NCBI GenBank assembly: GCA_963669155.1
Contig: OZ022581.1
Location: 20,802,138 to 20,866,137 of the forward strand
DNA length: 64,000 nucleotides
Direction: 5' to 3'
DNA from: Arbacia lixula
Lineage: Eukaryota; Echinodermata; Echinoidea; Arbacioida; Arbaciidae
Under the pieces are notes generated by a model that had not been told where the DNA came from, searched no databases, and worked only from the letters and a program-made list of their open reading frames with translations. A program made the position numbers and the translations under genes. Shown here piece after piece: positions 4,811 to 58,478 of the stretch; the first letter of the stretch is position 1, and every line of letters begins with the position of its first letter.

Positions 4811-5818
4811 ACATAAGCTATGTTCAACAGTATCATCGAGTTTTAAATCCCTTTTCATCACTTTTTTGCCACTTTCACGTTTTGCTTTCATTTTGATCCG
4901 TTGTGATTATATCAGCATTATGGAAAAGGACGCGCTGATTGCAAATCAATCACGGTCTTGTTTCAGGACAGATTTGTTGCATTGTATGCATGGAAGGTGT
5001 ATGCATGTATTGCCTAGCAACAGCTTCTGTATGAAAACCACTCTTGGACATTGGAATTATCATCGTTGGTTACTCCAGCTGAGAAGAGGCTGCTTGACAT
5101 TTGCCAGTCCTGATGCGGAATCAACCATTATACAATTTCACTGAAAGAGGCGTTCCGGTGAAAAGACAAATTGCTCGTAATAGAAGCAGAACAATCTGTT
5201 ATCAGATTCAAAAACATGAAAAAGTTTTGAGCAAAAATTTGACACACAAAAAAAGATAAGAAGGTCGTGAAAGTTTTAATGATCGCTATTTTCGGGCAAT
5301 AAATTGGCAACACGCAATATATATTTCTTTCGATTAGTGACTCATCGTTGCGAGTTTGAACAAGCATTTCTCACTCACTACGATTATCTACTTTCATTCA
5401 ATGATTTAAATCAACCCAATGTCAGCAATGCTATTCCATGTTTCAAGTCAAAATTACGTAACCAGTGGTTACGGAACATCTCATGCGTACTATTGATGCT
5501 CCCCTGGTTCGTATCTTAGTTATGCAAACAAATAAAATATGATTAAATGAAATGTGATAGGACCCTTATTCTTTTCCGTATCCACGTTAAGATGGAAGAA
5601 TATATTTGTATTATTTTCATCATGTTCTTATAATGTATGTTTGTGTACGCTTCGTTAAAGTTCTGCAGAAGATAACACATTCAAGCGCAATTGCGGTCAT
5701 CTTGAGGAAAATCATAAAAGAAAATCATCACTTTTCAAACTCCTTCATCTTAAATGATCTCATTCATCGTATGTCATGTCACAGACTTGGCTTTCCTCTT
5801 GCAATAATCGACACGTCG

Positions 5819-6305
5819 ATGCTCAACATGATGGATTACGAGTACCACGACTACGAAGACGAATACACACCCCTCGACGGCAGCGGCAACAGTGATCGTC
5901 GAAAGCTGAGGAAAAAGAAGGAGTCTTCGTCGTCATCGTCGAAGAGAGTTCACCGCCGTCCGCCGCCATCGGACACGACGTACCGGGGCAAGAACTACGG
6001 GCCGCCCCAGAAGACGCGGGGGTGTTGCGCCTGGTTATGCCGCTGTTGCAGTTGCTGGCTCGTGATCGTTCTCCTGTGCATGCTATGGGCCACGTGGCTA
6101 ACTCTCTGGCTCCTCAGCACATACCTCCTCGGCCCCACCCCGGGGAGCCCCTCACACGGAGCTGTGGTAGGGGCGGGGCAGGGGAATGGGCAGGGGAGTG
6201 GGGTAGTGGGAGGGATGGCGCTGACGAGAATCCCGACTGAAGTAGCGAATGAGAAGGGGGCGTTCTGTCTTGACGGCACCACTCCGGCCTACTACCACAG
6301 AAAAG
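5819..6305 (+). CDS. esterase-like gene, coding exon 1 (cytoplasmic tail, membrane anchor, start of domain)
   Basis: Encodes residues 1-162: tail with a poly-Ser/Lys/Arg stretch, the Cys-rich juxtamembrane CCAWLCRCCSC, the hydrophobic anchor, a Gly-rich linker (about 115-132) and the domain opening FCLDGTTPAYYH. The donor is AAAAG|GTGCAC, a non-consensus but usable site, and the phase-1 join to exon 2 restores the family signature RKGSG. The frame stays open upstream to 5606, but those residues look like untranslated DNA. Confidence 0.85.
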
Positions 6306-6861
6306 GTGCACTTTTGATTTGTTTTGATCATGCTAATAAACATATTACTGACTGATATTTATGCAAACAAAGTACTTTTACTAGGATGGTTAAATTTAGT
6401 TCATGCTTGTCAACAAATCAGGTAACATGATGATCGAGATAATCTTACTATGAGTTTCACAAATCATACCCCAGGCCCAGACAAGTCAGACACGATCATT
6501 ATCATAATTTTAGTACTGTACTCATAAAAGGTCAAAGTTCATCATCGTTTATGTTCATGTTAGATTAAGAATAGAGACTCACTGGCAATATACTACATAG
6601 TGTACACAAATATCTAATGCATTTTGTGTTTGAATCTCCCACTTAAGAATATGTTTAAGAAAGGCAAACTGCATTTTATCTGTTTGGCATAATAACATTG
6701 ATTTTAGTAACACATTTTGATGTTAATCTATGTCATTAGGGAGTACTGGTAATGGTAGTAGATCTACATGGTAATAGTATTAGTACTGTTGGATACAATT
6801 GATAATAGCATAGTGGTTGAACGTAGTGGTAATAGTGGTGGTGGTAGTAGCAGCAGCAATA

Positions 6862-6900
<39 letters not shown>

Positions 6901-6935
6901 ACAGCAGCAGCAATAGTAGAAGTAGTAGTAGTAGC

Positions 6936-6981
<46 letters not shown>

Positions 6982-6997
6982 CTACTACTACTAGTAC

Positions 6998-7039
<42 letters not shown>

Positions 7040-7040
7040 C

Positions 7041-7090
<50 letters not shown>

Positions 7091-7956
7091 CAGTAGTAGT
7101 AGAAGTACATGTACCATGAATTATGATAAAAGTGAGGTATTGTATATGTCGATGATAACAATGATGATAATAATGATATCATAAATAATAGTGATCAATT
7201 GATTGATCATGTACAAAAAAAAAACTATGATTATCATTTGCTTATCTCCGGTCTATTACTTACCTCTCTCGATCCCTCCTCCTCCTTCAGGCAGCGGTAT
7301 CGGGTCCAACTCCTGGATCCTACACCTCCCTGACGGCCAGTGGTGCTATAACGTCACCAGCTGCTACCAGAGGAGTCTGACCTCCATGGGGTCATCTCAC
7401 GGCATCCCGTCGTCCATCGCTGCTTCCGGTCTCCTCTCCCAGGATGCCAGCGTCAATCCAGACTTTCACGACTGGAACGTGGTCCAGTTTCACTACTGCG
7501 ACGGCGCCTCCTTTTCCAGTGCGTTGCGTTTGTTACATTAATTTGTTAAAGGGATAGGTCACCCTGAAATTATTTTTCTTTAATTAAAAGCAGACACATA
7601 AATGAAACATATTAGAGAAGGTTTGATGAAAATCCGTCAAGGGATAAGAAAGTTATGATCTTTTAAAGTTTTGATTTTGTGACGTCATGTGCGAGGTGTT
7701 CTCTCATAATGATATGTTGTGTACAATTTTTTGTGCAAATTTAAATTTTCTCTAAAAGATATACATGCGTTTACTTGTGCATTTGATATATCATTAAAAC
7801 ACGTTTTTACACACATACCTCTGTGAAAAATATTTATTCCAAAGTCAAAAATAGAAAAGGAGCAATTTATGTTAGGGTTAACATTTTCAATGTTCGGGTC
7901 TAGTGCAAGGATGGGGATATGGGGAGAATAAGGTCACCCCTCCCCCCTTCCCCCCC

Positions 7957-7987
<31 letters not shown>

Positions 7988-9038
7988 TGCACAACCGGCA
8001 CGTCACACATTTATACATCAAAACATGCATTTGATATGTCTAATTTGTTGCTTGAAAGTTTGATAATGTATTTCAAATTTTATCGTCAGGATAAAGAGCC
8101 TCCTCTTTGTTCACTAGGTAACCCATCCATGCACTGTCATGATTATTGTCCAAAAAGGTTTCTTGTCTTCCGCTCTTCTCTCATTTAGTTCTACTCCCAG
8201 TTCGCCTATAACAGCACAACCTTCGAAGTGTCCTTAAATTATATGTGACCTTAATCACAAAAGCTAACAAAATAAAATAAACACAATTAGAAACGTACCA
8301 TCACTGATGCATTTTATGTTCTTTTGTGAAAGTTCCCCATTTTTTACCTTCTCTCTCCTTCCAGGTGAAGTCACATACCCGGTGAGTGTATCGGATGACC
8401 ACGTGATCTACCTGAGAGGCGCGCGCATCTTTGAGACCATTTTGATCTACCTTCTCAATACCACTGAGCTGAAGGCTGCATCTCGAATAATTTTCTCTGG
8501 GTCAGGATGTAAGTACTCCGTCCTCGCAGTGTGTGTGTGTGTGTATGTGTATGTGTGTGTGTGTGCGCGCGTGCGTGCGTGCGTGTGTGTGTGTCTGTGT
8601 GTCTGTTTGTCTGTGTGTGTCTGTGTGTGTGTCTGTGTGTGCGTGTGGGGGGGGGGGGGTAACGGGGGCATGATGAATATGCATGTTTCAGTTCTTTTAT
8701 GTTTTGTTATATCCTCCTTTATGTTTGTTCTATGGAGTCATTGAATTGAATATTTTCATACAGTTGATTTGTAATCTCCCATGTATGAAAGTTAATTATT
8801 TCTATTTCCTGTCATGAGAACTGTAATTTCCAATCCCCTGTTTATGAATAAGATGTTGACATTTATGTTATGGTTATGTGTATTCAATAATTGTAAATTT
8901 TATCATTATGCTTTGGAGGAATCACAATAACTTTTGTAAAAGTGCTTTTGTAGGGATGTGTTTTTCTTGTGTTTTTTACTGTTGCGAGAAAGTGCTTAAT
9001 TTTTCTTTCTCTATGTGTGTCCGTCTATTTCTTTCATC

Positions 9039-9109
<71 letters not shown>

Positions 9110-10538
9110 TCTCTACCCCTTGTAAAGCCGGTGGACTGGGCGTCTTCTACCACGCGGACCGCGCACGCAGCCTCCTCCCAGCCAACACCACCATGCACGC
9201 CCTGGTCGACTCCGCCTTCTACCCAGACAGTTACAATAGGTCCAACTATATGCACATCAGACTTCAGTTCCAGAGGCTATTCAACTTCCACCACCTCACA
9301 GGTAAACCAAGCCGCTCTTCCAATCATCTAGGCCCTGGGAATGAAATGAGCGTTCGAGTCAGATTAATCGCAACTCTTTATAAGAAGTAGCCTAGTTACT
9401 AGGCTATGGGTTCGTCTGAGGGGCCAGAACATCAAGTGGGATGAGGGCGAAGTCTATGTTACCACACATATTTGTTAAGAGACACAGGTGTGTCCAAGCA
9501 CTCCACAGCCTTGTAAGTAGGCTATAAGTCAAAGGGACATTGGGCAGTTTAAAAGGATCCGCAGTTGTGATTGGCCGCATTATGTCTTAATTTTGGATCT
9601 TCAACGAGAGGACTTGAGCCTAAATGTCACGTACTGTGTAAACACTAAGTGAGACCGTCATTTTATTTCATTTTTCCACATAAAGCTAATATAAATATGC
9701 ATTTCAAATAAAAATCGTTAACATAAAAATAATGGTTAGTATATAAGCAAACGTAACAGCATTGAGAACATCGTATTACATATTCTATGTGAAAAATTGT
9801 GAGTGATTTCCTAATCAGTAAAGGACAAAATCAATGCTATACACAATAATTTACTATGTGAAGGTGAGGAAGTATGGAGAAATGATGAACACACATTTTT
9901 TCGTCTTCCCGTGTTCAGGGAGCTTTGACGGAGACTGTGTACGGGCGAAGGAGTCGACGGACCCGGGCAGTGTCTGGCAGTGTATGTTCCCCGAGTACGC
10001 TGCTCGCTTCATCCAAACCCCGCTCTTCATCGCTACCTCCCTGTACAACCCCTGGTCTATGTGGTTCATTCTCGACATGCGGTGCCACCCCCTCGACTGC
10101 CCCGAACTCTCGCCGCTCATGGAGCGCTTCGGCACCGACACCCTCACCAAGCTGCGCGCAGCAGAGCTTCCGAACGTGGATGGTGTATACGTGACGTCAT
10201 GTTACGCCGATGATCTCATTGGACGAGGCTGGGATCACGTGACGATCAGCACGTCCAAAGTGACGCCAAAAGACGCGTTCGGAGCATGGTATTTGAGGCG
10301 AAGTACAGAAGCTTACTATGGCAGCAGCAGCAACGACGACGGTAACGCGACGGTGTCGTCAGTATCCATGGCGAATGACTACTGGTTTATGGATTGTTCC
10401 ACCAGTGCCTTGTGCAATGGGGAGTGCGACTGGAGCAAAGCCACATTTCAACATATTGCAGCGACATTGCAAGGCATGGAAGATTTCTTCATAGGGTCCG
10501 CCAATGTGGTTAACACATCGCTGCCACCTACGCAGTAA
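5819..10538 (+). CDS. membrane-anchored pectin-acetylesterase/NOTUM-family protein, probably catalytically inactive (5 exons)
   Basis: Joined exons 5819-6305, 7291-7518, 8365-8508, 9128-9301 and 9919-10538 give 1653 nt, 550 residues. Every intron is phase 1 with GT/AG ends. Residues 1-68 are an acidic then basic, Ser-rich cytoplasmic tail; a Cys/Trp-rich stretch leads into one hydrophobic segment (about 80-104). Lys/Arg before the segment indicates type II topology. Residues about 147-460 match carbohydrate esterase family 13: FCLDG, SGIGSNSWILHL, YCDGASF, RGARIF, a GSGSGG elbow, MFPEY, TPLF and SCYAD. From memory of the family, the nucleophile Ser aligns with Gly286, the Asp with Asn388 and the His with Asp442; the oxyanion GGGW reads DGQW (177-180). 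Several N-glycosylation sequons fit an extracellular domain. Active relatives deacylate pectin (plants) or remove palmitoleate from Wnt (NOTUM). Here binding without catalysis is more likely. ATG 5819 is chosen as the first before the acidic tail; ATGs at 5828 and 5831 are alternatives. Confidence 0.88.
6306..7290 (+). other. intron 1 of esterase-like gene
   Basis: Phase-1 intron of 985 bases carrying the large (AGT)n array at 6835-7104. The 3' end has a good pyrimidine tract (CCTCCTCCTTCAG). Confidence 0.8.
6835..7104. repeat. (AGT)n microsatellite with internal strand switch
   Basis: About 270 bases of AGT units with GCA/GTA variants. At about 6981-6991 the repeat switches to ACT units and then back through CTAGTACTAG to AGT, so the array is partly self-complementary and can fold on itself. 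Long open frames here in all phases are repeat translations. Confidence 0.97.
7291..7518 (+). CDS. esterase-like gene, coding exon 2
   Basis: 228 bases (76 codons, phase 1 both ends). Encodes residues 163-238: SGIGSNSWILHL, the altered oxyanion segment PDGQWCYN, an NVT glycosylation sequon, and the family motif VVQFHYCDGASF. The plant-type family equivalents of the last motif read YCDGSSF, so this exon ties the protein to the pectin-acetylesterase fold. Confidence 0.88.
7546..7870 (+). mobile_element. MITE family A (TTAA-type), 5' portion
   Basis: Starts TTAA-AGGGATAGGTCACCCTGAA and continues through the internal landmark TTTGTGACGTCATGTGCGAG shared with copies at 14762, 17877, 61180 and 62491. 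The match with the 61180 copy continues past the centre to about 7866 and then stops; the right terminal repeat is missing. Confidence 0.8.
7940..7986. repeat. C-run and (CA)n
   Basis: Homopolymeric C blocks separated by T, ending in a short CA repeat. Confidence 0.95.
8365..8508 (+). CDS. esterase-like gene, coding exon 3 (first half of nucleophile elbow)
   Basis: 144 bases (48 codons, phase 1). Encodes residues 239-286 including YLRGARIF, the conserved helix preceding the elbow, and RIIFSGSG. The exon ends GGA-T|GTAAGT: codon 286 (GGA, 8505-8507) is Gly at the position where active relatives carry the nucleophilic Ser, and codon 287 is completed in exon 4. No alternative in-frame donor nearby would restore a Ser there. 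Confidence 0.88.
8529..8660. repeat. (TG)n and G-run
   Basis: About 130 bases of TG repeat with CG and CTG variants, closing in a run of 13-14 G. Confidence 0.95.
9041..9113 (+). repeat. (CT)n tract acting as polypyrimidine tract of intron 3
   Basis: A 73-base near-pure CT repeat ends 14 bases before the exon 4 acceptor (AG at 9126-9127). The intervening bases are ACCCCTTGTAAAG, a weak acceptor context by themselves, so the microsatellite probably supplies the pyrimidine tract. Confidence 0.9.
9128..9301 (+). CDS. esterase-like gene, coding exon 4
   Basis: 174 bases (58 codons, phase 1). Completes the elbow as GSGSGG and encodes residues 287-344: GLGVFYHADRARSLLP, two sequons (NTT, NRS) and the VDSAF segment that corresponds to the conserved ADSG/ADAG region of relatives. 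The donor is CACAG|GTAAAC. Confidence 0.88.
9302..9918 (+). other. intron 4 of esterase-like gene
   Basis: Phase-1 intron of 617 bases. Bases 9400-9530 resemble one arm of the palindromic element at 12181-12378 (shared GGGATGAGG..AGTCTATGTTACCA and a GACACAGGTGTGTCC block). The rest is AT-rich without recognisable features. Confidence 0.8.
9400..9530. mobile_element. possible fragment of MITE family F
   Basis: Partial and diverged similarity by eye to the right arm of the palindrome at 12181-12378. No terminal repeats are intact, so this is a weak call. Confidence 0.3.
9919..10538 (+). CDS. esterase-like gene, coding exon 5 (terminal)
   Basis: 620 bases ending at TAA 10536-10538; encodes residues 345-550. 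Contains VWQCMFPEY, the strand TPLFIATSLYNPW and SCYADD. In relatives the catalytic Asp lies in YDSW-like context and the catalytic His in SCYAHC-like context; here the codons are AAC (10047-10049, Asn388) and GAT (10209-10211, Asp442). The tail has Cys-rich WFMDCSTSALCNGECDW and ends in SLPPTQ without a second membrane segment. Confidence 0.88.
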
Positions 10539-11248
10539 AACGTATGGCCTTGTCTACGTGCCTTCATGCCAATCTTCTGTGGATTACACCTACATTCATT
10601 TCTCGTGCGCCGAAGGAAAGATATGGAATAGCCTGCTTGAATAAGGCGGTTTTTAAAATGTTAATTTGATATAGAGAGAAGTGTAAAATGTCGATACTGA
10701 GGCTGATGTTCGAATAGACATGATAGATATACAGATTGTTGTATATACCTGTTGACAAATATGGGTTTTTGTTTCACGAAGATGCCTTCTTCGTGGAACA
10801 TCTTTGTTATTGTTTCAGTACATGTATATCAGTTACATATGCACCCACCCCCATCACCACCCCCCCCCCCTCCACAGACACACACACACAAACTCACACG
10901 CTTTATTCAAAATCTTTAGTGACATTTCATTAGAATGTTTTCGTAACACACGGCCAAACTCAGTATCAGGTCATGATTATAATCATATAATTACATAATC
11001 ATTATTTACCGGTGTGAATATGCTGCATGATACCTGTCGTGGCATTCAAGTCGCCTTTTCTTGTCAGTCTTCGAAATATCATCTTAAGTATTTATCATCG
11101 GTATGTACATTGACAAACGACGTCGGGATGTGACAACTCTTTTTGTTATGTCACAGGTTTTCGATGAAATCGCATTGCCATGATTGATATGGTGGCTAAG
11201 GGGTGGGATTGTAGGCTCATATATTTTGTAGCCCATACTGGTCACATT
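10539..11248 (+). other. probable 3' UTR / downstream flank of the esterase-like gene
   Basis: No coding signal after the stop. Holds a C-run plus (CA)n at about 10860-10890 and AT-rich sequence. Whether the transcript ends here or reaches the AATAAA at 11492 cannot be told from sequence. Confidence 0.35.
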
Positions 11249-11311
11249 TTAAAGGTAGCCCGTCCCTTTTGCAGACCTAATTCTAAAAGTTCCCCGACTT
11301 TGTCATCATTT

Positions 11312-11349
<38 letters not shown>

Positions 11350-11654
11350 CTATATAACCTTTCCCTGGAATCGACAAAGCGTAATATTCTGTTTTGAGGA
11401 AATAATCTTTGTAAATTGATCGAGCTTTCTTTTTTCGTACAACGAAAATAGTCGTGATTTCAAATTGTGTCGATGGTCGGCAATCAATTGGAATAAAATC
11501 TCGGTGAAAATAGTTCGATTTTTATTTATTATACGGGAGTTATAGTACCTCTGACCTTAAACTTTCACAGTTGGTATCCTAAAGGTACGTGCTAAATATG
11601 TGAAAACTTTCGCGAGTTTTACAGATGTTTGTAAAAGGGACGAGCCATCTTTAA
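11249..11654. mobile_element. MITE family B (TTAA-type), diverged copy
   Basis: Flanked by TTAA at 11249-11252 and 11651-11654. The left end reads AGGTAGCCCGTCCCTTTTGCA; the right end is its inverse, AAAAGGGACGAGCCATCT. Two other copies lie at 24344-25329 and 39698-40225. A (GA)n block of about 36 bases (11314-11348) has grown inside it. Confidence 0.8.
11492..11497 (+). promoter_or_regulatory. candidate polyadenylation signal AATAAA for the esterase-like gene
   Basis: The first canonical AATAAA I find downstream of the stop, about 950 bases away and inside a MITE copy (11249-11654). A long 3' UTR or a variant signal nearer the stop are both possible. Confidence 0.25.
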
Positions 11655-14262
11655 GCAATGCATTAGGCTACTATGTTATGAAATGTATATTGTATGTGAA
11701 TTTTTGTGTACATGTACATACGTTTGTAATTTGTTTTGATATGTTCCGAAAATATTCCTTAAAGTTTTTGTAGATTACAATTTTATTTAATGGAAAACAG
11801 CAACATTTTGATGCCAAGTTTGTTTGTTATAAGAATAACAAGAAAAAAAAATCACGTTTATATAAATTAGTGTTTGGGGAAAATAATGATATTGTGAATT
11901 TTGTAGACATCGTACTCACTAGCACTGAATGGTATATAACTAAAAAGCAATATAAAAACAAGTCATCAAACTAACCAACACGCATGAATTTTCCAAACAT
12001 TGGATCTTAGTAAAAAGTAGAATTAAGTTGTAAAATAATTCCTCGTAACTTTCCCGTTATCAAAATAACGTTACAGCGTGTATAATTTTCCTCGTTATCT
12101 TTGATTTTCTTACTGCATTAGCATACTAAATTGGAATTAAAAATTAGTAAAAGTTGTTGTTCGAACCGAGACCTAGTATCCTAGGTACCAGGCCGTGAGG
12201 TGCATGGACACAACCCAGTCTGTTAACAACTACATAACAGACTACGCCCTAATGACGTCATAGCCCCCCTGGCTTCTTGGACATGTTGGAGTGAGGATGA
12301 GATTGGGGCATAGTCTGTGTTACCAGACATTGTGGTCAACAGACTGGGTTGTGTCTATGCACCTTACCGCCTTCCTAGGCAGGCCCTGTACTACTGTAAA
12401 TAATCTAATGTAATTGTTGACACGTCTATCGTGTTTGTTGTAAACTAAATTCGCCCATATACGATGTATTTTGTTTTAAGGGTTTTAGGGTTTTGTATCA
12501 AATATTAATTCTGTTATTTGGGTCGTTTGGTGAATAGGGATTTTTCTACTTGTCGTGCATTCCCCATGTTAAACCGTTCATCCTGTCCTATGGTATAACA
12601 ATTGGTGTGTGTAAATTATATAAAAATGTTACATTGTTCGATTTGCAGTGCAACAAACCGTTAAATGTGGCATGCTATGATTATCCTTGAAAATCCGCTA
12701 CTAATAGAGCAAACAATAACTTAAGTGGTATTCTGAAATCCACCAGAGGTGAAAAATTGTTCTCCCTGAGATAAAATGCCCCTAAATTATTCATTGTTAG
12801 CATTCCGGAACAGATCTCTGAAAATATTAGCCACTGTTGATAAGCGTTTGCTGCGTATATCCTGTCTTCTCATGACCAATGACGAACGTCCGTTCATGTC
12901 GTCGTGCATAAATGAGGCCACGTGTTACTTTAAATATTCAAATGATTATGTTACACGTTAACTTGATGAATAAGGTGTCTTCTTCTCGTATTAAAGAAGC
13001 AAAGTCAACATTATCGTGAGTATTGCTATCGAAACAATATTTTTTTTTGCAATCCCTTGTGTCTTCCCAAATGTTTTCTTAAGTGCTTTAAAAAAAAACT
13101 GCGTAAGCACATTTGCATGAAATATTTTTCTTTGTGACTTGTTTGCATAATGTTGTTTATCTTTTATCCTTACGTGTCTTTCGGAACAAGATATAAACGT
13201 TTTTCCTAACTCTCCGACAGTCCGAGATATCTTGATGAGTTCCGTTTCTGTTTTTCGGAAGAGTTCAATGCTGAACAATAATGAAATGGTATAGCGCCCT
13301 CTTAAAGCTCTTTCACTCAGCACTCAAAAATGCACATGAGGCAACTCGACGCTTTGCAAATCTTGTATTTGCAACGGATTTGTTGAATGGTAATAATTTT
13401 AGAAACGATGACATTATTGATTTTTTTTCAAATACGCAATGTAAGTGGATAAAAAAAAACGAAGAAAGAAACCAACAAGAAAAAATACACGATGGTCGCT
13501 TATGGCCATTATTGTCACAGAGATAGAAGGAAAACAACAAATCAGACTTAAAATTAGAATTAGAACTGTTCATTCATTTACAGCCTCAAAAATAGAATTT
13601 GCCTTCGCCTTGATTTACGTAAAGAGCTTCCAGCACAACTCACTGAGCTTCCATGAACACCGATAGATGTTTAACGGTTTTTGTGTTAGAACACAATGCT
13701 CCGAATCAGTACCCGAAGTATTGTTCGTCATTGATCATGGCACTGCGTCGTTTAACTTGTTTTTAATTTTTGCACTATACTTGTAAATTAAATCATTTAG
13801 TCATTTTTTGTTAATGGTATAAACATAAACAATGACATTATTTGTGTCAAAACTAAGGTTGTCTTACATAGGCCCATTGGCCATACTGCTTTGATTATTG
13901 AAATATTAAAGTTGCTAATAACCACGACCGTTCTAGAAGAACTGTCTTCTGTTAAAATGGTGTCAAGTACCATAGTAATCTTATGCATAATATCTCGGAA
14001 TCATGAACTTTAGTATATTCACTGTTACACTGAATTGCCATCTCCATTGTGTTCTAAAGCTTCCATTGATATTCTGTGAAAGTGATCCATTAAACAGCTC
14101 ATGTAAAAGTGGCGGCTTTATTTCTCAGACTGTGATATCGCCCATTTAATTGAATACTGTACTTGCTCTGTTTCATTACCATACTAGCCTCAGGTAGCAC
14201 TGACAACCAAGAAGTAAAAAAAAAATACCTATATTGAAAATTAATGAGAAAAAGGTCAAATA
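11655..14262. other. AT-rich region with no supportable gene
   Basis: Apart from the palindromic element at 12181-12378 I see only AT-rich sequence with many stops on both strands. Open frames of 60-110 codons at 12776-13666 resemble no family I know and overlap one another on opposite strands. Confidence 0.5.
12181..12378. mobile_element. MITE family F, palindromic element
   Basis: Near-perfect long inverted repeat: the left arm contains GTGCATGGACACAACCCAG followed by TCTGTT, and the right arm carries its inverse, AACAGACTGGGTTGTGTCTA. The arms total about 75 bases each with a short centre (CATAGCCCCCCTGGCTTC region). No open frame; a non-autonomous, fold-back-like element. Confidence 0.8.
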
Positions 14263-42429: not shown

Positions 42430-42565
42430 GCATTGTCCTGAGACTGCGAGGCAGCATGAGAGTTGTTGGAGGACAACCCTAGTTTGTGCAACAGTAGACA
42501 GTCCCTGACCCTATATGCCAGCGGGCCAGCCAGCCAACCAGGCATCGACCGAGACCCACAGAGCG
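42430..42565 (+). other. 5' UTR portion of the TMEM45-like gene's last exon
   Basis: From the acceptor to the chosen ATG. An in-frame TGA at 42506-42508 bars extension of the coding frame upstream. An in-frame ATG at 42515 would add 17 residues, but its context (TATATGC) is poorer. Confidence 0.6.
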
Positions 42566-43501
42566 ATGGCTGTCATGTGGCAGGACTTCACCCTGTTTGG
42601 CTCCTTCCTTTTCTTCGTGGCGGTGGGCTGGACCTTCAAGCAGAGCTATGAAAAGTTCACCCGCTACCGGGAGAAGACCGAGCTGGAGGTGGAGATGGAG
42701 AGTGTCATGATTGAGCAGTGCTTCAAGCGGTCGTGGATCGAGGGAGTCATGGTGGTCACCAGCGTCGCCGTCATGCTACTCATAGAGATGCTCCCGCGCC
42801 ACCAGGAGCAGTCGACGACCAGCAAGGGGAAGGCCGGGGCGGCGACGTCAGATTCGGACTCTCGCTGGTTTGTCTACATCATCTGGTTGCCATATGCCTT
42901 ATACAGCGTGGTCTTAATACTCTGCGATTTCTACTCGGCGTGGGTTAAGGTCTTCGTCAAACCTTGCATACTCTTTGCTCTACTCTGCGAGTACGCCATC
43001 GTGGCGGCGCACCTCAACAACCTGCCGAGCGGCACCGACCGGTGCATGTACACACCCGTCTGCACCCTGATCTACTTCTCGGCGCTGGTGGTGGTGGGGG
43101 AGCTGCTGGTGCCTGAGCTGGAGCAGCTGTGCTGGCTGCGATGCGGCTGTACCCTAGTCCAGGGCACCTGGCTGGTGCAGGTGGGCTGCACCCTCAGCAT
43201 GACGGGGCGGGAGTGGCGGCGGGACGAGGGCGTCGGCCTCACCGTCTTCGTCATCTTCCTCTGGCACTGCGTCCTGGCATGGATCGTCGTCCGCGTCCTC
43301 AAGAGAACGGTTAAGGTGGTCAGCACCTCTAAACCCACTGCGGACAACGCCTGGGAGTACTTTGACTTGTACAGTGACGACGATGATGATTTTTATTACG
43401 GGACCAAGTCCACGAAACACGACGGGTGGATGCAGAGAGGCGGTATAGCCCTAACTCCAGAGCAGATCCTCGCCATGGGATACAGAGCCGAATACTCATG
43501 A
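42566..43501 (+). CDS. TMEM45B-like: TMEM45-family (DUF716) seven-helix membrane protein
   Basis: 311 residues from ATG 42566 (context GAGCGATGG) to TGA 43499-43501, in one exon. Hydrophobic segments lie at about 8-24, 57-76, 101-123, 129-150, 163-183, 197-212 and 224-245, giving seven helices, as in the TMEM45A/B family. Family hallmarks seen: the opening FGSFLFFVAVGW, the sixth-helix LVQGTWLVQVG (relatives have LQGTWFWQIG) and the seventh-helix FLWH (relatives CWH). The acidic tail DLYSDDDDDFYYG and the C-terminal extension are longer than in human TMEM45B (275 residues). Codon use is GC-rich compared with the flanks. Known family roles are poorly defined (endomembrane proteins); no enzyme motif is visible. 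A spliced, non-coding upstream exon is implied but not located. Confidence 0.9.
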   Translation: MAVMWQDFTLFGSFLFFVAVGWTFKQSYEKFTRYREKTELEVEMESVMIEQCFKRSWIEGVMVVTSVAVMLLIEMLPRHQEQSTTSKGKAGAATSDSDSRWFVYIIWLPYALYSVVLILCDFYSAWVKVFVKPCILFALLCEYAIVAAHLNNLPSGTDRCMYTPVCTLIYFSALVVVGELLVPELEQLCWLRCGCTLVQGTWLVQVGCTLSMTGREWRRDEGVGLTVFVIFLWHCVLAWIVVRVLKRTVKVVSTSKPTADNAWEYFDLYSDDDDDFYYGTKSTKHDGWMQRGGIALTPEQILAMGYRAEYS

Positions 43502-57400: not shown

Positions 57401-57559
57401 CCAGGGAACACGATTGGATCAGTCGTGCGACTCTGCGACTGACCGAATCGCAGGGCCCGACCATTGGGTTTCTGTGAGATGGTAACGTCACATTTCCCGT
57501 CGTAGGCACTTGCGACAGCAGAATCGTGGCAAAATCGTGTCGCCTGCTGTGGTCCTTAT
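57401..57559 (-). mobile_element. family I repeat, reverse orientation
   Basis: Shares in inverse orientation with 58303-58478 the blocks GACACGATTTTG, ACGATTCTGC, AAATGTGACGT, GCGATTC and CGCACGACTGATC. About 160 bases, CpG-rich for this window. Confidence 0.8.
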
Positions 57560-58302: not shown

Positions 58303-58478
58303 AGGCCCACCGCAGACCATGGCAGACGACACGATTTTGTCACGATTATCCCACGATTCTGCAGCCACAAGCGCCTGCGACTGGAAATGTGACGTCACCT
58401 TCCTTCACAAATCCAATGACCTGGTCCTGCGATTCAGCCAGTCGCAGCGTCGCACGACTGATCGGATCGTGTCGCCTG
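58303..58478 (+). mobile_element. family I repeat, forward orientation
   Basis: Begins AAGGCCCACCGCAGACCATG then GCAGACGACACGATTTTG, and ends CGCACGACTGATCGGATCGT. The pair with 57401-57559 is inverted, about 740 bases apart. Confidence 0.8.

Follow-up and report, generated by a model that had tools for sequence, protein, structure and literature searches.

A sea urchin protein of the pectin acetylesterase/NOTUM family without a catalytic triad: a probable membrane-tethered pseudoenzyme in Arbacia lixula

The window considered here is a 64,000-nucleotide stretch of DNA from Arbacia lixula (GCA_963669155.1, contig OZ022581.1), corresponding to C6:20802138-20866137 of a 607-Mb assembly in 590 contigs. 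It carries, on its forward strand at 5819-10538, a gene whose product belongs to the pectin acetylesterase (PAE)/NOTUM family and lacks all three of the catalytic residues of that family. Scripted splicing of window positions 5001-14000 yields five exons and a 550-residue product, hereafter the PAE-like protein, followed by TAA. The parts of the gene are as follows.

5819..6305, + strand, exon 1: N-terminus, cysteine-rich putative hydrophobic anchor (about residues 69-99), stalk and start of the PAE domain (CLDG)
7291..7518, + strand, exon 2: PAE domain up to residue 239, with the LPDGQWC oxyanion motif and YCDGASF
8365..8508, + strand, exon 3: RGARIF and the strand preceding the elbow, closing with GSG, in which Gly286 takes the place of the nucleophile
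8509..9127, + strand, intron 3: phase 1, inside codon 287
9128..9301, + strand, exon 4: completes the elbow, SGGLGVFYHADR
9919..10538, + strand, exon 5: remainder of the PAE domain, YNPW, SCYADD and C-terminal tail, with the stop codon at 10536-10538

All four introns are of the GT-AG type and in phase 1, and the 550 codons are open. Judged by eye, two donors are weak (AAG|gtgcac and CCA|gtgcgt), while that of exon 3 is strong (GAT|gtaagt). GC content is 0.49-0.61 in the exons, with 0.72 at third codon positions, and 0.33-0.40 in the introns. The introns also hold long AGT, GT and CT simple repeats (6860-7100, 8530-8640 and 9040-9110), two of which adjoin the exon 3 donor and the exon 4 acceptor. 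In the protein, the motifs of interest are PDGQWC (residues 176-181), GSGSGG (284-289), YNPW (387-390) and SCYADD (438-443).

Residues 143-473 match the Pfam PAE family (PF03283) over profile positions 17-353 of 355, with 259.4 bits against a cut-off of 26.6 (E 7e-77), a score that is not attributable to chance. Eight of the nine sequences listed for the Protein Data Bank are NOTUM, the best being fly NOTUM at ~63 bits, and the remaining one matches no better than chance (E 0.93). Aligned by phmmer, the protein and fly NOTUM pair GSGSGG with GSSAGG, YNP with FDE, and SCYAD with SCIGH. The register was checked in four ways: this phmmer alignment, a 43-row MAFFT alignment, a hidden Markov model (HMM) from 35 relatives that excluded both the PAE-like protein and the plant sequence, and a global pairwise alignment with the NOTUM of the same genome. 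The catalytic Ser is replaced by Gly286 and the Asp by Asn388 in all four, and the His is replaced by Asp442 in every check that extends to the third site. Alignments with human NOTUM stop at residue 390-391, and hence cover the Ser and Asp sites and not the His site. The elbow aligns without gaps, which keeps Gly286 in register. Thus, the three substitutions first called by eye are borne out both by alignment and by a profile from which the protein was excluded. None of the residues that mark an active PAE/NOTUM carboxylesterase (nucleophile Ser, catalytic Asp and catalytic His) is present.

The 43 rows of the alignment comprise 39 bacterial domains, the PAE-like protein, NOTUM from the same genome, fly NOTUM, and one plant PAE, a single sequence that is provisional. 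Bacterial relatives came from a genome scan (four loci), from 15 matches in those four genomes, and from a Pfam search of one phylum, in which 201 of 377 genomes had a match and loci were taken for 30 matches. The resulting 47 loci, some of them overlapping, gave the 39 domain sequences once scored and deduplicated; the near-identical pairs L015/L017, L037/L038 and L031/L033 were retained. A two-row alignment search of Bacteroidota at E 1e-20 matched one of 395 genomes, which was already known. Plasmids gave no match by tblastn at E 10, and viral contigs yielded no relative, none of 16 pattern matches there being confirmed.

With five bacterial rows gapped at Asp or His left out of the count, 38 rows have letters at all three catalytic sites. 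Ser-Asp-His is kept in 33 of the 37 rows other than the PAE-like protein, and only the latter, with Gly-Asn-Asp, is missing all three residues. The remaining non-canonical rows are all bacterial: L042 (Glu-Asp-Pro), L046 (Asn-Asp-His), and L057 and L058 (both Ser-Asn-His). L046 thus has Asn at the nucleophile position. L042, an open frame of 365 residues on the minus strand of genome G168, has Glu at the nucleophile (GTEAG) and Pro in place of His (GQPIW), and is itself a candidate pseudoenzyme of the family.

The oxyanion hole is also altered. Human NOTUM builds this hole from the amides of Gly126-Gly127, Gly127-Trp128 and Ser232-Ala233 (PMC8172013). The equivalents in the PAE-like protein are Asp177 for Gly126, Gly178 for Gly127, Gln179 for Trp128, and Gly286-Ser287 for Ser232-Ala233. 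The initial annotation had reported loss of the oxyanion glycines; this holds for the first, which is now Asp177, but not for the second, which is retained as Gly178. Since nucleophile, acid and base are gone and the oxyanion hole is damaged, catalysis by the mechanism of the PAE/NOTUM family is ruled out for the predicted protein.

An alternative splice between exons 3 and 4 could in principle restore a serine, and the initial annotation had named such a splice at 8508/9128 as the finding that would overturn its claim. Donors (GT or GC) at 8440-8600 were paired with acceptors (AG) at 8700-9200, keeping only those pairs that preserve the frame. In none of the 104 resulting options does the sequence around the junction read G-x-S-x-G or G-x-S-x-A. 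Asn388 and Asp442 are independent of this splice because both are encoded in exon 5.

Loss of conserved residues is concentrated in the active site. Conservation was scored in 35 relatives, including both NOTUMs; the plant row was kept out, as were six rows that aligned poorly. In columns conserved at ≥90%, the PAE-like protein keeps one of the five catalytic or oxyanion positions and 18 of the 22 others (one-sided Fisher test, 0.017). Both NOTUMs keep 27 of 27, and 19 of 22 non-catalytic positions are unchanged in the plant row. All six family cysteines (150, 181, 187, 232, 351 and 366) are present. The family fold noted at the outset is retained. Catalytic residues lost from a conserved fold are one mark of a selected pseudoenzyme, seen here at the level of sequence.

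Within the family, the PAE-like protein appears nearer to plant-type PAE than to NOTUM. In an IQ-TREE phylogeny of 36 rows and 336 columns, from which seven short or near-duplicate bacterial rows were omitted, it joins the plant row (support 100/98), the two NOTUMs form a separate group (100/99), and the two groups are joined at 89/76. The 100/98 grouping depends on the one plant row, whose provisional sequence weakens it, and a long-branch bacterial row, L026, also falls inside the group (97/27). Consistent with this placement, Leu151, Asp233, Gly234, Ala235 and Phe237 are common to the PAE-like protein and this same plant row and are not found in NOTUM. The 35-row HMM scores the two alike, at 175 bits for the PAE-like protein and 179 bits for the plant PAE. 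Their branch lengths are likewise close (1.26 and 1.11), arguing against any strong acceleration in the sea urchin protein.

Genome searches, which scored best candidates only, revealed one other family member. Searching with the PAE-like protein gave five matches, all of them its own exons by position; exon 1 together with adjoining intron sequence accounts for the weakest (E 0.0016). The Pfam PAE search gave three matches, to exons 2, 4 and 5 of the same gene, and missed even the true NOTUM locus. Fly NOTUM found exon 2 of this gene plus a second locus on C10 with four matches. This second locus, C10:10666831-10677321, encodes a NOTUM in 11 exons with an intact triad (GSSAGG, LYDE and CYAH), and a phase 2 intron interrupts its catalytic Ser codon (AG|C). 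No further PAE-branch copy was found by these searches.

As to origin, a NOTUM duplicate is rejected, and the PAE-like protein is not a NOTUM orthologue, since it groups with the plant PAE and a separate NOTUM with intact triad is present in the same genome. Horizontal transfer from bacteria is unsupported, given four introns and the grouping with the plant row, though L026 joins that group at 97/27. Finally, intron 3 lies 2 nt downstream of the elbow intron of the same-genome NOTUM. It was not used as proof of a common animal origin with NOTUM because of that offset, the differing phases (1 against 2), and the likelihood of such proximity by chance given ten NOTUM introns.

Of note is that the PAE domain is preceded by a hydrophobic segment that had gone unmentioned in the initial annotation. 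Residues 81-99 have a mean Kyte-Doolittle value of 2.39, and no hydropathy window elsewhere in the protein exceeds 1.6. Seven cysteines lie at 69-87, 15 Lys or Arg residues occur among the first 70 positions, whereas 106-125 has none, and all six N-x-S/T sequons (183-543) lie past the segment. Taken together, these features predict a type II membrane protein with the PAE domain outward. Near the N-terminus, YTPL at residues 16-19 matches the Y-x-x-hydrophobic pattern of a sorting signal, although the motif is short.

The PAE-like protein is probably a maintained pseudoenzyme within the PAE/NOTUM family (carbohydrate esterase family 13, CE13, of the alpha/beta hydrolases), on its plant-type branch, and would serve in binding or adhesion while tethered to the membrane. 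A single hydrophobic segment near the N-terminus would hold it there, leaving the N-terminus inside and exposing the PAE domain, with its family cysteines and glycosylation sequons, on the outside. The retained fold and a remodelled, more polar pocket would bind a partner such as an extracellular glycan, a proteoglycan or a surface protein. A glycan or protein partner is favoured over a lipid because Asp177, Asn388 and Asp442 are predicted to make the pocket more polar. The protein would then act in adhesion or recognition, or as a receptor, much like neurotactin and the neuroligins with their cholinesterase-like fold. By analogy with these, adhesion or recognition is the most likely task, while the ligand and any signalling can only be guessed. 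Selection for a non-catalytic role, the type II topology and the surface location are all things that we infer. Of the original proposal of a selected pseudoenzyme acting, for example, as a binder or decoy, the catalytic death, the retained fold and the absence of plain decay hold up, and the binder or decoy role is surmised. The protein is unlikely to be a decoy for an active paralogue of plant type within the same animal, since NOTUM is the one further family member revealed by genome searches that scored best candidates only.

A bolder and rather unlikely extension is that the active site of an ancient polysaccharide deacetylase has been rebuilt as a binding site. Asp177, Asn388, Asp442 and the adjacent Asp443 would in that case form an Asp/Asn cluster at the former triad, and the protein would represent a class of tethered animal glycan receptors or adhesion molecules, possibly cation-dependent. 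Such a receptor class, derived from a carbohydrate esterase, would be new, and would differ from NOTUM as well as from adhesion molecules of the cholinesterase-like kind.

The proposal of a maintained pseudoenzyme must be set against several weak points. The Fisher test depends on five catalytic columns, its values at looser conservation cut-offs of 0.8, 0.7 and 0.6 are 0.043, 0.047 and 0.031, and the conserved columns derive mostly from bacteria. The non-catalytic columns that were lost are 235, 239, 255 and 287, the last being the residue just after the nucleophile. Only 235 is also altered in the plant row; as 239, 255 and 287 are kept there, the fold is not wholly unaltered. The case for selection draws on the DNA of one genome. 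The topology is predicted from hydropathy, with which charge bias and sequons agree. Moreover, the frame upstream of 5819 is open to 5591 and contains a further in-frame ATG at 5771 that could serve as the start, making the 5′ end and first residues of the model uncertain. One of 4000 runs of a rough simulation of neutral change, at distance 0.1 and with frameshifts uncounted, had the three changes and no stop.

That simulation bears on the rival view that the gene is relaxed or decaying, catalysis having been lost after its substrate vanished and the frame being as yet unbroken. The single genome and the two weak donors are compatible with such a gene, but 550 codons are open, the splice sites are GT-AG, and structural columns and family cysteines are retained about as in the provisional plant sequence. 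By a closed calculation, the neutral probability that the three named codons change while all 550 codons stay open does not exceed 7.3e-5 if indels are ignored, or 3.2e-6 if 0.1 indel per substitution is assumed; at each of seven other distances, the simulation gave 0 of 4000, in the same direction. With a joint probability of ≤7e-5, neutral decay is unlikely, and the relaxed-gene view as a whole is considered unlikely too. The calculation speaks against plain decay, and not against a recent loss selected separately. An assembly or splice artefact that masks a working active site is very improbable. The long GT and CT repeats next to the donor of exon 3 and the acceptor of exon 4 are hard to sequence, but the three changes lie apart from one another, in exons 3 and 5, and the splice scan described above offers no rescue for the first of them and does not touch the other two.

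The protein could instead modulate the Wnt/NOTUM pathway as a tethered competitor that binds palmitoleoylated Wnt or a glypican without cleaving it, and so opposes the intact NOTUM encoded in the same genome. NOTUM has a lipid pocket and separate heparin- or sulfate-binding sites (PMC8172013). However, the PAE-like protein groups with plant-type PAE and not with the NOTUMs, so that Wnt binding is not inherited by default, and the acquired Asp177 and Asp442 would suit a lipid tail poorly; this role is accordingly rated as quite unlikely. More doubtful still is that the protein remains a hydrolase through a substitute set of residues, for instance Ser285 or Ser287 in the elbow together with Asp442, Asp443 or a migrated His. 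Two serines do flank Gly286, His451 lies nine residues past the family His column, and some annotated pseudoenzymes have migrated residues or have proved active (PMC10211241 and PMC12037411). Against this, the acid, the base and one oxyanion glycine are also lost, and the gap-free elbow leaves Gly286, and not a neighbouring serine, at the nucleophile position.

Pseudoenzymes in general are already well known. Plant-type pectin acetylesterases (CE13, PF03283) share with the PAE-like protein a full-length domain and the CLDG, YCDGASF and SCxA motifs, besides the grouping and profile scores given above. Plant PAE motifs are GCSxG, NxayDxxQ and HCQ (PMC5465549), whereas the PAE-like protein reads GSGSG, TSLYNPWS and DDL and has an N-terminal hydrophobic anchor. 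NOTUM, a palmitoleoyl-protein carboxylesterase, is of the same family and has the family cysteines in common, but differs in its triad, its 11 exons in this genome and its intron layout. A parallel in design is offered by neurotactin, the neuroligins, gliotactin and glutactin, described in PMC5943944 as adhesion proteins whose alpha/beta-hydrolase ectodomain is without a functional triad. The likeness to a predicted tethered domain of this kind is one of design and not of membership, as those proteins are of the cholinesterase/carboxylesterase family. Neurotactin is also type II. Inactive members of the GH28 polygalacturonases of beetles are likewise pectin-enzyme pseudoenzymes in animals, although these are glycoside hydrolases of a different fold. 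That this pectin-enzyme family of beetles includes pseudoenzymes is stated in PMC8213348.

Among the matches listed in a search of open-licence papers, none describes a pseudoenzyme of the NOTUM/PAE family, and no open-licence paper matched all terms combined for GID1 as a pseudo-hydrolase receptor. If maintained, the PAE-like protein would represent another animal route from alpha/beta hydrolase to membrane-tethered recognition protein. The gene further suggests that animals have a plant-type PAE lineage alongside NOTUM, a matter relevant to the origin of the Wnt deacylase from a family of sugar esterases.

Elsewhere in the window, seven neighbouring open frames were compared with Pfam; six had no family, and one matched DUF716 below the cut-off (17.3 bits against 25). 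The latter, at 42509-43498 (+), is 330 residues long with hydrophobic stretches and is presumably TMEM45-like. The AATAAA signal was matched 88 times, which is not clearly beyond chance (9 of 100 shuffles reached as many). Downstream of the PAE-like gene, at 12190-12372, is an inverted repeat with 41-nt arms that are 88% complementary and 101 nt apart, and that may be a small hairpin-type mobile element. A longer inverted repeat occurs at 57402-57554 and 58315-58478, where 138-nt arms, 81% complementary and ~800 nt apart, can be translated into similar peptides on opposite strands.

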